From Myxococcales bacterium (lineage in GTDB: Bacteria; Myxococcota_A; Polyangia; Polyangiales; Polyangiaceae), in assembly GCA_903642325.1 (NCBI GenBank), contig CAHJWM010000037.1, forward strand, positions 1 to 49,086: a DNA stretch of 49,086 bases. The letters are read 5' to 3'. Below are positions 2,583 to 28,152 of this stretch, in pieces. The translations under genes were made by a program, and so were the position numbers. How positions within the stretch are numbered: position 1 is the first letter of the stretch; every line of letters starts with the position of its first letter. Below the pieces are notes generated by a model. That model saw nothing but the letters and a program-made list of their open reading frames with translations. It did no database searches and was not told the DNA's origin.

Positions 2583-4195
2583 GACGAATAGTCAGGCGGT
2601 CGCGGGCAGGATCAAGGCGGTCGGGTACGCGCGCGTCAGCACGCCCGAGCAGGCAGAAAAAGACCTCTCACTCCCGGCGCAGATGGCGAGCATTCGCCGC
2701 TACGCCCAGGACCGCGGCCTCGCGCTCGCGGGCGAGTTTGTCAAGCGAGGCGTCAGCGGGACCGACGACAACCGACCTGAGTTTCGTCGGATGCTCGAGG
2801 AGATTTATCGACCAAACTCCGAAGTCGGAATGGTCATCGTCACGCATGGCGCGCGCTTCATGCGCAACGCGACGAGGGCCCGCGTGCACAAGGAGCAGCT
2901 GCGCAGGCGTGGCATCCGCGTTCTGGCGATTCAGCAAACAGTGAGCGACGATCCGAACGGGCATTTTGCGGAGGGGATGTTCGAGTTGATTGATCAACTC
3001 GAAAGCGAAACCAATGGCGTGCGCACGCGCGCTGGGATGGCCGAAAACGCGCGCCAGGGCTACTTCAATGGCTCGAGACCGCCCTTCGGCTTTTGCGTCG
3101 AGAAGATTGCTACATCCGCCGGACCGAAGAACAAGCTCGTCATCGAGCCGGCAGAAGCAGAGCTCGTGCGCGAGGTCTTCCGTCAGTACCTGGCGGGCAG
3201 CGGCGCGAAATCCACCGCCCGCCACATGAACCAACGCGGCCTGCTCTGTCGCAAGCACCTCTGGACTCGCGATCTGGTGCTGAGGGTGATTAGCGATCCA
3301 GGCGTTGTCGGAACCTACAACTGGGGCCGGCTCGATTCCCGCGGCAATTGTATTCGGCCTGAAAGCGAATGGATCCCGATGGCAGTCGAGCGCATCGTGG
3401 ACGACGAGATTTTTCAAATGGTCCAAGAGCTGCGGCTCCCGCCGCGACCCAGGGCGCCCGCCATCGAGCCCGCTCTTCCTCGCGGGTCGGCTGCGCTGTT
3501 CGCGCTGCGGTGATACCTGCCAGCTCGAAAGCTCCGGCAAGCTCGATCCAGACGGTGAGCCCTATCGCTACTACAATTGCCGGCGCTTCTGTCGGAGCGG
3601 TAAGAAAGCTTGCGCGGGCTAGCGAATCTCGGTCGACACGCTAGATCGCGCGATCCTGAGCCATATCGCCGAGCACGTCTTCACCGCAGAGCGCTATCGG
3701 GAGATCCTGCGCGAATTCGTGGAAGACCAGGGCATTCTACGGCAAAAGACCGCCGAGCAACGACGGGTCCTCGAGCGAGAGAGAGACGAGCTCGGCAAGC
3801 GCCTCGAGCGCTGGTATGAGCGTATCGAAACGGATTCCGAGCTCGGTGACGTCGGCGCGGAGCGCCTCCGTGAGCTAAAGACCAAGCGCGACGAAGTCGT
3901 GCGTACGCTGGCCAAGCTGCGGCCCATGCACTCCGTGCCGCCGTATCTGTACAAGCCCGAGACCATCCAGCGCTTCCAGGTTCGGCTCCGCGAAGCGTTC
4001 CTTGGAGGTGACCGTGCAACCGCGCGCGTCTATCTGCAAAATCTCGTGGACCGCATCGTCGTCGGTGAAGACGAAATCATCATCGAAGCACGCGCGGGCG
4101 CAGCTCTCGCCATGATGTCTGCGTCAGGCACGACTCTTCCCGAAGCCGCCAAGGGAGAAGTTCTCGCAGACGTAGTAGATTGGCGCGCCCCGTAG
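2575..4195 (+). pseudogene. Large serine recombinase, frameshift plus in-frame stop
   Basis: Starts at GTG 2575. The resolvase catalytic domain carries VGYARVSTPEQ with the nucleophilic serine at about residue 22, followed by the recombinase domain (FNGSRPPFGFCVE, STARHMNQRGL). The frame closes at 3513. The zinc-ribbon region continues in the +1 frame (SSPLFLAGRLRCSRCGDTC, YYNCRRFCRSGKKACAG), so a frameshift lies near 3430-3475. That frame meets TAG at 3620-3622, then continues in the same frame as RISVDTLDRAILSHIAEHVF and a long coiled-coil segment to 4195. Full length would be about 535 residues, normal for integrase-type serine recombinases. With two breaks it is probably dead. Its final codons overlap the 3' end of the tRNA-Arg gene on the other strand. 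Confidence 0.85.
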
Positions 4196-4257
4196 GATTC
4201 GAACCTACGACCCTCGGATTCGAAGTCCGATGCTCTATCCAGCTGAGCTAGGGGCGC
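4181..4257 (-). tRNA. tRNA-Arg (anticodon TCG)
   Basis: The minus strand folds as a full cloverleaf. The 7-bp acceptor pairs GCGCCCC with GGGGCGC, the D-arm reads TAGCTCAGCTGGATAGAGC, the anticodon loop is CTTCGAA with TCG at positions 34-36, and the T-arm reads GGTTCGAATCC. A CCA tail is encoded at 4183-4181. It would read CGA. The 3' end is overlapped by the last codons of the broken recombinase, which makes it a plausible attachment site for the neighbouring element. Confidence 0.96.
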
Positions 4258-23772: not shown

Positions 23773-24768
23773 TCAGCCGCCTAGATAAGACATCTCGAGC
23801 CGGCGCACGCTCTTGCCGAGCGAGCGCAGCTCCGAGTAGCGATCGCCTCGCGCGCTCCAAAAGCTCGTCACCGCCGCCCCCACATCAGCCCCTGCGCGCA
23901 CGAGCGCGCGCAAATCCTGGCCCTCGCGGGCGAAAAGGCAGCCGAAGATCTGGCCGTCCGCGCTCAGTCGCAAGCGCGCGCAGTCGCCACAAAAAGGTTG
24001 GGTTACGCTGCTGATCACCCCGACCTCACCGCTGCCGTCTTGGTAGCGATAGCGCTTGGCGACCTCCCCGCGATAGTTCGGCACGAGGGGCACGACGGGC
24101 ATTTCCGCGTCGATGCGCGCGATGATCTCTTGGCCGCTCACCACATGCTCCATGCGCCAACCGTTGCTCAGCCCCACATCCATGTACTCGATGAAGCGCA
24201 CGATGTGGCCGCTGCCTTTGAAATGCCGAGCCAGTTCGACCAAGGTGTGATCATTGACGCCGCGGCGAACCACGGCGTTGATTTTCAGCGGCGGAAAGCC
24301 CGCCGCCCGCGCCGCCTCGATGCCCGCCAACACATCGCGCACTGGCAGCTCGGAATCAGTCATGCGCGCAAATACCTCGGGCGACACCGAGTCCAAGCTG
24401 ACCGTGATCCGGTCCAAGCCGGCGTCGCGCAGCGCGTGCGCGTGCTTGCTCAATAAGGATCCGTTCGTGGTCAACGCGAGCTCCAGCTCCGGAAAGCCCC
24501 GCAGCATTCGAACGAGTCTCGGCAGCTCACTGCGCAGCAACGGTTCGCCGCCCGTCAGGCGCACCTTGCGCAGCCCGAGAGGCAACAGTGCGCTTACCAC
24601 GTGCGCGATTTCCTCGAAGCTCAGGATGTCGGTCCGCGGCAAATAGCGATGCTCTTGACCGAAGTGCTCGCGCGGCATGCAATAACGACAGCGGAAGTTA
24701 CAGCGGTCCGTGACGCTCACCCGCAGGTCGGCGAGGGGCCTACCGAGCTGGTCGCGTGCGGGGAACAT
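23773..24768 (-). CDS. moaA: GTP 3',8-cyclase MoaA
   Basis: A 331-residue radical SAM enzyme for the first step of molybdenum-cofactor synthesis, converting GTP to 3',8-cyclo-7,8-dihydro-GTP. The N-terminal cluster motif is TDRCNFRCRYCMP (CxxxCxxC). KVRLTGGEPLLRSELP is the SAM-binding GGEP. The C-terminal cluster motif is FCGDCARLRLSADGQIFGCL, and the protein ends in the Gly-Gly tail needed for activity (SYLGG). ATG 24768 is chosen because the longer form would use TTG. It is divergent from moaC across about 76 bp, which must hold both promoters. Confidence 0.97.
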   Translation of the reverse strand: MFPARDQLGRPLADLRVSVTDRCNFRCRYCMPREHFGQEHRYLPRTDILSFEEIAHVVSALLPLGLRKVRLTGGEPLLRSELPRLVRMLRGFPELELALTTNGSLLSKHAHALRDAGLDRITVSLDSVSPEVFARMTDSELPVRDVLAGIEAARAAGFPPLKINAVVRRGVNDHTLVELARHFKGSGHIVRFIEYMDVGLSNGWRMEHVVSGQEIIARIDAEMPVVPLVPNYRGEVAKRYRYQDGSGEVGVISSVTQPFCGDCARLRLSADGQIFGCLFAREGQDLRALVRAGADVGAAVTSFWSARGDRYSELRSLGKSVRRLEMSYLGG

Positions 24769-24844
24769 GTGCAACGGTGTAGCATCGCTGGCCCACGCCG
24801 CATCGCTGCCGCGCAGGATCCAAACAACTGCTATCGTTACGAGC

Positions 24845-25726
24845 GTGAAACTCTACTCCTTCGACGGGGTCGACGCGGCCCTCGACCTCGTGCCGTTGGC
24901 GGCGCGCCGCGCCCTGGATCTGAGCGGGCTCAAAATCTCGCTCGAAACCTGGCGAAACCTGGCGCTCCCGGAGCGCCGGGCTTTGGTCGAAGTCGGCGCG
25001 GAGTGGTCAGTCGACTCGCAGCGGGTGAGTAGTCTGTTAGCGACCACTCCGGCCGCTCGCGTCGAGCCCGTGGCCGAGCTCGGCACCGCGACCATTCCCG
25101 TCGAGGTAGCGCGGGCATTCGGGGCGGCTCTGCCCATTTCTTCAGCCGTTTGGCAGTCGCTCTCACCGCTCGACCGATACGCTTTGTGGAAAGTGGCCAG
25201 CCGGGGCAAGCCAGACCGAATCATCGCCGCGCACGCCGAGATCGTGGGGCACAGCTCCCTTTCCACGCACGTTTCGCCAGCAGGCGGAGCGCGCATGGTC
25301 GATGTTTCGCAAAAGCCGGCATCTCATCGGCGCGCGGTGGCGGAGACACGTGTGACCCTAAGCGCAGACGCCTTCGCGCGCGTCAAGAGCGCCACAGTGC
25401 CCAAAGGGGATGTGCTCGGCACGGCGCGTCTCGCGGGGATCATGGCCGCCAAACGCACGTCGGAGCTGATTCCGCTCTGCCATCCGCTTTCGCTGACGAA
25501 GGTCGAGGTGTCGCTCGAGCTCGACGACGGCGCGAGTGCCATCGCCGTGCGTGGCATCGTGGAAGCATTCGATCGCACCGGCGTCGAGATGGAGGCCTTG
25601 ACCGCGGTCTCCGTGGCGGCGCTCACCGTCTATGACATGCTGAAAGGCATCGACCGCGCGATGGAGATCGGGCCCACGCGGTTATTGACCAAAAGCGGCG
25701 GGCGCACGGGAGATTTCTCGCGATGA
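24845..25726 (+). CDS. moaC: Fusion: nitrate-reductase-associated-like domain plus MoaC
   Basis: A 293-residue protein from GTG 24845. Residues 150-293 are MoaC, cyclic pyranopterin monophosphate synthase: [53 protein letters not shown] and [19 protein letters not shown], all intact. Residues 1-140 ([59 protein letters not shown]) resemble small nitrate-reductase-associated proteins often encoded beside assimilatory nitrate reductase. A normal MoaC is about 160 residues, so this is a domain fusion. MoaC turns the MoaA product into cPMP. The stop overlaps the moaE start (ATGA). Confidence 0.9.
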
Positions 25727-26187
25727 GCTTGTTCGAAATCCGCGACCGCGAGTTGTCCGTGCTGGAGGTGGTCGCCGCCGTAACGCGGCCAGAGGCAGGC
25801 GGCCTCGCTCTGTTCGTGGGCACCGTGCGTCGCGAAAATGCGGGTCAGCCGGTGACGCGGCTGGAGTATCAAGCCTACGCCTCCATGGCCGAAAAGGAGA
25901 TGGCGCGCATCGCGCAGGAGATCGAGCAAGAGCTGGGCGATGTGCGCTTGGCGGTGCTGCACCGCGTGGGCTCACTCGAGGTGGGGGAGGTCGCGGTGAT
26001 TTGTGCGGCCAGCACCGCGCATCGCGCCGAGGCCTTCCATGCCTGCCGTTTGCTCATCGACCGCATCAAAGCGGACGTTCCGATCTGGAAACGCGAGCAT
26101 GGGCCGAGCGGGCCGTATTGGGTAGGCTGGGAAGACGCGCGCTGTGGGCCCGGCACCGGTCACGCCGGCCACGGACACGATCAATGA
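25723..26187 (+). CDS. moaE: Molybdopterin synthase catalytic subunit MoaE
   Basis: A 154-residue MoaE. GGLALFVGTVRRENAGQPV is the conserved N-terminal block, LEYQAYASMAEKEMARIAQ the helix, VLHRVGSLEVGEVAVICAAS the core, and RIKADVPIWKREHGPSG the active-site lysine region. It ends in a His-rich tail (GHAGHGHDQ). With sulfur carried by MoaD it converts cPMP to molybdopterin, yet no MoaD gene lies in this window. It is coupled to moaC by a 4-base overlap, and its end overlaps that of mobA by 7 bp on the opposite strand. Confidence 0.96.
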   Translation: MSLFEIRDRELSVLEVVAAVTRPEAGGLALFVGTVRRENAGQPVTRLEYQAYASMAEKEMARIAQEIEQELGDVRLAVLHRVGSLEVGEVAVICAASTAHRAEAFHACRLLIDRIKADVPIWKREHGPSGPYWVGWEDARCGPGTGHAGHGHDQ

Positions 26188-26762
26188 TTCATGTCTTCCG
26201 GCGTGTCCCAGTCGCGCAGGCTGCGCCCTTCGGCGCCCCGTAGCTCCAGCTGCACCACGCCTTCTCCTAGCTCTTTGAGTACGTGCATCAGCGCGTGCCT
26301 GCCGGCCGCCAAGGAGCGCTCCAGCGCCGCTAGTGCTGGCTTCGGTGCATACGCCGCCGCCAGTGGTTGAAACCGTTCGTCGACGACCGGCACGCGCGCT
26401 GCAGCGTGCAGAGGCTCCAGCAACGCGCCGATCACCGCGTCATCCAGGAACGGCAGATCGCAGGCCAAGGCCAGCGCCACCTGACAGCTTTCCGTGTGCG
26501 CGTAGCGCAGCAAGCTCCGCAGGCCACCGATCGGTCCGACGCCGCTTGGATCATCACGCAATTGCGCCACGCCGAGCTCGGCATACGCGGGCGAGCTGCC
26601 GACCAAACACAGCTTGGCTTCGGGCGCGGCGCCGGCGCAGACGCGCAGCAGCCGCGCGAGCAATGTCTCGTTTCCGCCGGGCGCTCGGAGCAAGCCCTTG
26701 GCCACGCCACCCATGCGTTTGCCGGCGCCACCGACGAAGATACCGATCAACACTTCGCTCAC
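26181..26762 (-). CDS. mobA: Molybdenum cofactor guanylyltransferase MobA
   Basis: A 193-residue nucleotidyltransferase. The nucleotide-binding motif is GIFVGGAGKRMGGVAKGLL, with FVGG where LAGG is usual. Further motifs are GVGPIGGLRSLLRYA and ALACDLPFLDDAVI. It adds GMP to Mo-molybdopterin to give the bis-MGD form used by nitrate reductase and DMSO-reductase-family enzymes. GTG start at 26762 overlaps the moeA stop by 4 bases, so moeA and mobA are cotranscribed and translationally coupled. Confidence 0.9.
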   Translation of the reverse strand: MSEVLIGIFVGGAGKRMGGVAKGLLRAPGGNETLLARLLRVCAGAAPEAKLCLVGSSPAYAELGVAQLRDDPSGVGPIGGLRSLLRYAHTESCQVALALACDLPFLDDAVIGALLEPLHAAARVPVVDERFQPLAAAYAPKPALAALERSLAAGRHALMHVLKELGEGVVQLELRGAEGRSLRDWDTPEDMNH

Positions 26763-27949
26763 AGCTCCACCAAACGAATCATTTCCACGCTCTCGCCGGC
26801 GGCGAAGCCCGTGCTGTGTGCCGGCGCAATCAACAGTGCATCGGCGAGCGCCAAGCTCGCCGCCGACCCTGACGCTTGATTTGCGGCCGTTACCGCGAGG
26901 TCGCCTTGCAATTGAGCGCGATAAAAGCCGGTCCGACCGGGAGTGTGGCGGAGCGCGCTCTGCAATCGCGCCTGCCCGCGTGGGGGTAGCGGCCGGCGAT
27001 CGCCTTGCATGGCCCGGAGGAGCGGCATGCCGAAGAGCGCGAAGGTAAGTTGAGCCGACACCGGATTGCCGGGCAAGCCGAGGATCAACGTCTGCTCGAA
27101 GCGGCCGAAGACCAGCGGTTTTCCGGGCCTAACCGCCACTTTCCAGAAATCGAGTTGGGCGCCCACTGTGCTCAATGCGGCTCGCACCAAGTCGTGCTCT
27201 CCGACGCTGACGCCTCCCACCGTGATCAACACATCCGACCCCTTCAGGGCGGCGCGGAGCGCCTGCTCGGTGGCAGCCATATCGTCCCCGATGCGCGAGG
27301 CGACGTTTGGAGCCCCGCCCGCGCTCGCGACTAGGGCGGCGAGGCTCGGGCCGTTGGAATCCGGAATGCTGCCCGGCACGGCCGGCGTCCCAGGGCTCCG
27401 TAGCTCTTCCCCCGTGCACAGGATCGTGACTCGTGGCCGCCGCGCAACGAGCAGCTCACTCCGGTCCACCGCCGCTGCCAGCCCGATCTGGAACGGATTG
27501 AGCCGTGTGCCGCGCTTCAGCGCCATCGCTCCCTCGGCTAGATCTTCTCCGCGCCGACGGATGTGCGCGCCTGTGGCCGGCAAGGCGGTGAAGCGCGCCA
27601 GCTCGCCGTCGCGTGTGACCTCTTCCTGCATAACCACCGCGTCGGCGCCGCCGGGGATCGGCGCGCCGGTGAAGACGCGACACACACTGTTCGGCGCGAG
27701 CGGCGGGGCCGCCGCGCCGGCCCGGCTTTCCCCGCGAAGCACGAATGCCCACGGCCCTATGCCAAGGAACGCGCCGCTGTGCACCGCGTAACCATCCATG
27801 GCGCTGTAGTCGAAGCCAGGCAGCGGCGCGCTCGCCTCCAGGTCCTCGGCCAGCACGCGGCCCCCGGCCTCGGCCAAGCTCACGCGTTCGCTCGGAAGTG
27901 CCGGAGCTGACTCGAGAATACGTCGGAGGGCGTCGTCGAATGAAAGCAT
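26759..27949 (-). CDS. moeA: Molybdopterin molybdenumtransferase MoeA
   Basis: A 396-residue MoeA, normal length. The N-terminal region has PLPGFDYSAMDGYAVHSG, domain II has GAPIPGGADAVVMQEEV, domain III has LITVGGVSVGEHDLVRAAL and ILGLPGNPVSAQLTFALF, and a C-terminal beta domain follows. It inserts molybdate into adenylylated molybdopterin. The frame is open to 28141, but ATG 27949 gives the usual start (MLSFDDALRRILESAP). It is the first gene of the moeA-mobA pair. The adenylylating partner (MogA/MoaB) is not in the window. Confidence 0.95.
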   Translation of the reverse strand: MLSFDDALRRILESAPALPSERVSLAEAGGRVLAEDLEASAPLPGFDYSAMDGYAVHSGAFLGIGPWAFVLRGESRAGAAAPPLAPNSVCRVFTGAPIPGGADAVVMQEEVTRDGELARFTALPATGAHIRRRGEDLAEGAMALKRGTRLNPFQIGLAAAVDRSELLVARRPRVTILCTGEELRSPGTPAVPGSIPDSNGPSLAALVASAGGAPNVASRIGDDMAATEQALRAALKGSDVLITVGGVSVGEHDLVRAALSTVGAQLDFWKVAVRPGKPLVFGRFEQTLILGLPGNPVSAQLTFALFGMPLLRAMQGDRRPLPPRGQARLQSALRHTPGRTGFYRAQLQGDLAVTAANQASGSAASLALADALLIAPAHSTGFAAGESVEMIRLVEL

Positions 27950-28152
27950 GGCGCGGCGATCATAGCCCGTTGTCGGATTTCGTTGGAATGCAGTCAGTGA
28001 GCAATCCGTCTGACTTGTATGCCGAACCGTGCTCGGGCTGCGCTTCGCGCGCGGTTGACTCCGGATCGGCGGCAAGCGTCGAGCTCGGGCCGCTCCACCC
28101 GGTGCGCCAAAATTCTCGAAACACGGGTTTGCTCGAGCCATGAGGAAGACGC

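Follow-up and report, generated by a model that had tools for sequence, protein, structure and literature searches.

The window, the whole 49,086-nucleotide stretch analyzed here, carries a narM-moaC fusion gene on the forward strand at 24845-25726, a single open frame of 293 codons running from GTG to TGA. Its first 137 residues (24845-25255, +) form a NarM-like domain defined by PF09655, TIGR02664 and an all-helical AlphaFold2 model, which is joined through a linker (25256-25294, +; residues 138-150), marked by a drop in pLDDT and by a length that varies between fusions, to a MoaC domain, cyclic pyranopterin monophosphate synthase (25295-25726, +; residues 151-293 and stop; PF01967). The preliminary description had assigned MoaC to the second half only and had likened the first 140 or so residues to nitrate-reductase-associated proteins, and profile searches bear out both points. 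Pfam PF09655 (Nitr_red_assoc) matches the first 135 residues at 55.9 bits (E 8e-15, cut-off 25; matched span 11-123), while PF01967 matches residues 151-286 at 182 bits (8e-54) with the whole model covered, and the MoaC equivalog model TIGR00581 scores the fusion at 189.9 bits, above its cut-off of 141.5. All six positions that we take to be catalytic in MoaC (KHEEDK; K51, H77, E112, E114, D128 and K131 in E. coli numbering) are intact. The N-terminal domain also matches the NCBIfam model for NarM, TIGR02664, at 56.3 bits (E 5e-15) but does not reach the curated cut-off of 110. By these scores it is a distant relative of NarM that NCBI's own criteria would not count as NarM.

The GTG start at 24845 matches the start in more than 30 homologues, and third-position GC is equal in both halves of the fusion (0.79). 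We considered chance, an assembly error or a frame artefact as the source of the joined reading frame; this was ruled out by the even coding signal, by independently assembled named contigs and by a survey for the same fusion elsewhere, which the preliminary description had suggested. Using a whole-fusion profile, the two-domain protein was detected in 52 of the 108 genomes sampled from the Polyangiaceae-type myxobacteria, a family of soil bacteria, and in 26 of the 48 genera represented, counting matches at E 1e-99 or better with rows tallied by hand. About half of the family genomes in this sample lack the fusion. Among the window's own genome and 58 relatives, 36 of 59 contain a PF09655 match; reading the frames identified NarM-MoaC in 27 of these 36, three of which (G015, G019 and G032) have a clearly decayed MoaC. 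A phylum-wide draw of 377 genomes confined PF09655 to the window's order. Named contigs with the fusion come from Polyangiaceae and allied Myxococcota, among them four Polyangium isolates, one of which is the cultured Polyangium fumosum DSM 14668. The fusion is old.

Genes of molybdenum cofactor (Moco) synthesis flank the fusion on both sides. The GTP 3',8-cyclase gene moaA (23773-24774, −; TIGR02666 at 353.6 bits, cut-off 284) lies upstream and is divergent, and the gap between the two genes (24775-24844) is likely their shared promoter region; neither this gap nor the rest of the window holds a known Moco riboswitch at Rfam thresholds, and the gap gave no Rfam match of any kind. Downstream, moaE (25723-26187, +; PF02391 at 125.5 bits) overlaps the stop of the fusion with its start by ATGA, followed by a mobA-like nucleotidyltransferase gene (26181-26762, −; PF12804 at 77 bits, with MobA as the best NCBIfam model, under its cut-off) and the molybdotransferase gene moeA (26759-28141, −; PF03453, PF00994 and PF03454 all matched). 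Across relatives, moaA, moaE, mobA and moeA are the conserved company of the fusion gene. Elsewhere in the window, four consecutive tRNA genes occupy the contig end (48266-48953) and a fifth lies at 4184-4257.

Within its genome, the fusion is the sole MoaC match and the sole PF09655 match. MoaC makes cyclic pyranopterin monophosphate for all molybdoenzymes of a cell. As the fusion is the only MoaC, the cofactor for every molybdoenzyme of this host must pass through it if the host uses molybdenum. On contig C67, the same genome encodes a NarB/NasC-type assimilatory reductase along with nirB, nirD and a transporter of the NarK type; it also has two xanthine-dehydrogenase family proteins and one sulfite-oxidase family protein. 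On contig C4, a second narK-nirB pair is followed by no more than a NarB-type reductase fragment (L051:7719-8288; 49% identity across 139 residues), apparently a gene remnant.

Modeled alone with AlphaFold2, the N-terminal domain is nearly all helices (pLDDT 96, pTM 0.89). The whole fusion reaches a pLDDT of 92.5 with a pTM of 0.59, and pLDDT falls to 64-70 around residues 131-150. Across 46 fusions, the linker ranges from 14 to 164 residues. The whole-protein pTM, the pLDDT dip and the variable linker are together consistent with a flexible tether rather than a fixed interface. On a solved MoaC structure, 4pyd_C, the MoaC part superimposes with a VIA-align Z of 25.0 and an rmsd of 1.2 over 154 residues (53% identity). 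For the N-terminal domain, the best Foldseek hit had an E of 4.1, VIA-align retrieved none at Z ≥2 among 70 chains from Foldseek's list, and PDB sequences gave no profile match; a missing structural relative does not prove that the fold is new. Across the 45 fusions with a catalytically plausible MoaC, seven residues (P17, R21, R22, D25, R44, W103 and R111) never vary; three of them, P17, R21 and D25, persist in NarM proper and in fusions to MobA as well.

Such conservation could point to a regulatory or substrate-handling domain of MoaC, in which Arg21-Arg22-x-x-Asp25 would bind a phosphorylated pterin or nucleotide and control or feed the cyclic pyranopterin monophosphate reaction. Besides the seven invariant residues, the loss of D25 in all nine fusions with a decayed MoaC favors this reading, although that loss may represent as few as two events. 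Most of these residues are nevertheless kept in NarM-MobA, NarM-MoaE and standalone NarM, all of which have no MoaC attached; moreover, no domain interface is predicted and the linker length ranges more than tenfold. We consider regulation of MoaC by its N-terminal domain decidedly improbable.

Fusions beyond NarM-MoaC widen the range of partners. Four distinct proteins (L014/L124, L019, L025/L112 and L118) have the architecture NarM-MoaC-MoaE, and one contig (L123) encodes NarM-MoaE without MoaC. The draft genome of the latter also encodes NarM-MoaC on another contig (L127), so this bin may represent one organism with both proteins or a mixture. In two genomes of another family (L085 and L086), NarM proper is fused to MobA, and in a third genome (L153) narM is followed directly by mobA. 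On a Komagataeibacter plasmid, narM, annotated as a nitrate reductase associated protein, sits beside genes for an FdhF/YdeP-family oxidoreductase, moaA, moaD, moaE and fdhD; no nitrate reductase is annotated beside narM at this locus. The common factor of these fusions and neighborhoods is the molybdenum cofactor, from the first steps to the last. The preliminary description had proposed a role tied to the early steps of cofactor synthesis. Its link to the cofactor holds, as the fusions to MoaC, MoaC-MoaE, MoaE and MobA attest, but its restriction to early steps does not, given that MoaE acts in the middle of the pathway and MobA late. A role in a single step shared with MoaC is likewise weakened by the MoaE and MobA fusions.

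We therefore put at about even the chance that the fusion is a working MoaC carrying a NarM-like accessory domain on a flexible linker, which docks MoaC into Moco assembly or delivery. The MoaC part would make cyclic pyranopterin monophosphate for all molybdoenzymes of the cell, as suggested by its status as the only MoaC, its full-length domain and its intact catalytic residues. The NarM-like domain, compact and helical, would serve as a docking module by which MoaC is tethered to further components of the Moco assembly or insertion line. Such tethering would explain the swapping of domains of this family between MoaC, MoaE and MobA, which have in common the pathway or its end product and not one chemical step. 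Attachment to several cofactor-making enzymes points to NarM as a partner of the cofactor assembly line rather than of nitrate reductase alone; on this reading, cyanobacterial NarM proper would have its role in assembling or delivering the cofactor, not on nitrate itself. As evidence for tethering we count the domain assignments, the single copy, the spread over genera, the MoaE and MobA fusions, the Moco gene company, the Komagataeibacter locus, the linkers, the pTM and the loci of two genomes (G005 and G006) described below. Against docking, the N-terminal domain could regulate MoaC or bind a pterin intermediate instead, about half of the family does without the fusion, and some standalone NarM-like genes, on an Agrobacterium plasmid and in genomes of family f5, lie away from cofactor genes.

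Two settings of standalone NarM-like genes were recorded. On an Agrobacterium leguminum plasmid (L159), a gene annotated as nitrate reductase associated protein is surrounded by genes of amino-acid metabolism, and neither a Moco nor a nitrate gene lies within 8 kb. In four other genomes (L149-L151 and L157; G398, G210, G228 and G251), standalone NarM-like genes without Asp25 were seen by eye to lie beside globin-domain-like and cytochrome-oxidase-like genes, not Moco genes.

The family name raises the question of how closely the fusion follows nitrate reductase. The N-terminal domain might be a dedicated nitrate reductase maturation chaperone, with the MoaC fusion only securing co-expression of cofactor supply and maturation. 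In its favor are the NCBIfam name of the family (nitrate reductase maturation protein NarM), the NarB/NasC-type reductase operon with nirB, nirD and narK in the window's own genome, and the position of the fusion in G005 and G006, immediately after the nitrate-assimilation genes nirB-nirD and narK, with a NasA-like reductase in between in G006. We surveyed 32 genomes with a catalytically plausible fusion (G033 included), using as probes the NarG model, NapA-like partial matches and two enzymes, the NarB-type one of the window's own genome and a second, NasA-like one encoded at the L104 locus. Of the 32, 13 were found to have a NarB-type (≥44% identity) or L104-type (≥66%) enzyme, NapA-like matches only in a further five and NarG in a further three. 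At least 11 (G012, G017, G021, G024, G029, G033, G036, G056, G346, G384 and G395) gave no NarB/NasA, NapA or NarG-type match, a count in which some genomes are incomplete and 13 candidates were scored per large genome. The cleanest cases are the nearly complete G012 (98%), G346 (99%) and G024 (97%), for which all candidates were scored. Two of the 11, G021 and G395, encode a 701-residue enzyme, 37-39% identical to the probes, that could reduce nitrate, and several have xanthine-dehydrogenase or sulfite-oxidase family proteins. Conversely, G050, G105 and G011 contain a NarB-type enzyme without any PF09655 match. A strict tie to nitrate reductase is ruled out by the fusion genomes that gave no NarB/NasA, NapA or NarG-type match; judged by gene content, the fusion is not tied to nitrate, although G005 and G006 still show a link. 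Both the genomes without such a match and the NarB-type enzymes without PF09655 speak against a dedicated chaperone, which we regard as unlikely.

In G006 (L156:2973-6746), and likewise in G005 (L107), the nitrate-assimilation genes include a 1257-residue frame that combines a uroporphyrinogen-III-synthase-like part with NirB and NirD. At L156, this frame is followed by narK, a DmsB-like Fe-S protein gene, the NasA-like reductase gene and the narM-moaC fusion.

In a tree of 75 domains, none of them from cyanobacterial NarM, the MoaC-linked group splits from NarM proper with support of 97/97; the tree rests on a short alignment, and many of its inner branchings stay open. On this tree, the N-terminal domain is placed as a sister subfamily of NarM proper. 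The preliminary description had called the nitrate-reductase-associated family poorly understood; the family does have a name, NarM in NCBIfam, with the window's domain in the sister subfamily below the NarM cut-off. In a tree of MoaC, the MoaC parts of the fusions are not cleanly grouped in a single clade, and the starred branches require two or more changes of state. This argues against a single clean origin of the fusion and is compatible with one gain followed by losses or replacement. A neutral origin would hold that neighboring narM-like and moaC frames were joined without any new function beyond co-expression. PF09655 and Moco genes are often neighbors, which would make an in-frame join easy. 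Retention in 26 genera with an invariant N-domain motif, together with fusions to Moco enzymes that arose more than once (MobA from NarM proper), renders a purely neutral join very unlikely.

Several known systems come close to the fusion. Synechococcus elongatus narM is reportedly needed for nitrate reductase activity and found next to mobA. NarM and Nitr_red_assoc (PF09655, TIGR02664) share with the window's domain a homologous all-helical domain, the P-x-x-x-R-R-x-x-D motif and proximity to Moco genes, whereas the window's domain falls below the curated cut-off, belongs to a separate clade, is fused to MoaC and occurs also in genomes without detectable nitrate reductase. The MoaC half shares the full-length domain, intact catalytic residues and fold of ordinary MoaC (PF01967, TIGR00581, PRK09364) but follows an extra 137-residue N-terminal domain and linker. 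Known MoaC fusions, namely MoaC-MoaB (PRK03604), MoaC-MOSC (PRK14499) and MoaC-MobA (PRK14500), also join MoaC to another Moco-related domain; in those, however, MoaC comes first, none has a NarM-type domain, and their models score far below cut-off here. The proposed delivery of cofactor machinery to an apo-molybdoenzyme resembles the role of NarJ-type redox enzyme maturation proteins by analogy only: PDB profile, Foldseek and VIA-align searches revealed no sequence or structural relation of the N-terminal domain to NarJ/TorD-type structures, a missing match that is no proof. Paracoccus NarJ matures both Nar and Nas enzymes (PMC6618116), and a study cited in PMC13197769 concerns contacts of the Moco machinery with nitrate reductase A in E. 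coli. Both offer precedent for the contacts that docking to the Moco line would involve.

Our literature search returned no paper joining "nitrate reductase associated protein" with MoaC. Nor did the papers searched describe the architectures NarM-MoaC, NarM-MoaC-MoaE, NarM-MoaE or NarM-MobA, some of which may nevertheless be listed in automatic databases. The two domains belong to known families, and MoaC is known to occur in fusions; what is new is the NarM-MoaC architecture, which is real and conserved. NarM has so far been a name without a mechanism. Fusions to three Moco enzymes, in genomes with and without nitrate reductase, make its function testable through the proposal that NarM acts with the cofactor machinery, and Polyangium fumosum DSM 14668 provides a cultured host for the fusion.

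One branch of the fusions has decayed. Eight proteins (L141-L146, L047 and L048; G023, G029, G025, G056, G376, G015 and G032) make up a paralogous clade with 100/97 support, each with a NarM-like domain ahead of a MoaC-like region without the catalytic residues. Hydropathy alone predicts a C-terminal membrane helix in six of the eight, and these genomes have an intact MoaC elsewhere, fused or single. The clade members are apparently membrane-anchored pseudoenzymes. Asp25 of the NarM-like domain is lost in all nine MoaC-decayed fusions (the eight clade members and the separately decayed G019 protein), which would fit a need for Asp25 in the Moco-linked role but may reflect only two events. A broader and rather doubtful extension of docking would make NarM-type domains a general Moco-assembly scaffold whose fold has no solved relative and which lineages attach to MoaC, MoaE or MobA as needed, and would have the membrane-anchored NarM-MoaC pseudoenzyme of one branch regulate or localize the pathway. 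In G019, the only MoaC match of the genome is a NarM fusion (L049:2077-2952) with PYDEDK in place of KHEEDK, and a NasA-like enzyme is present.
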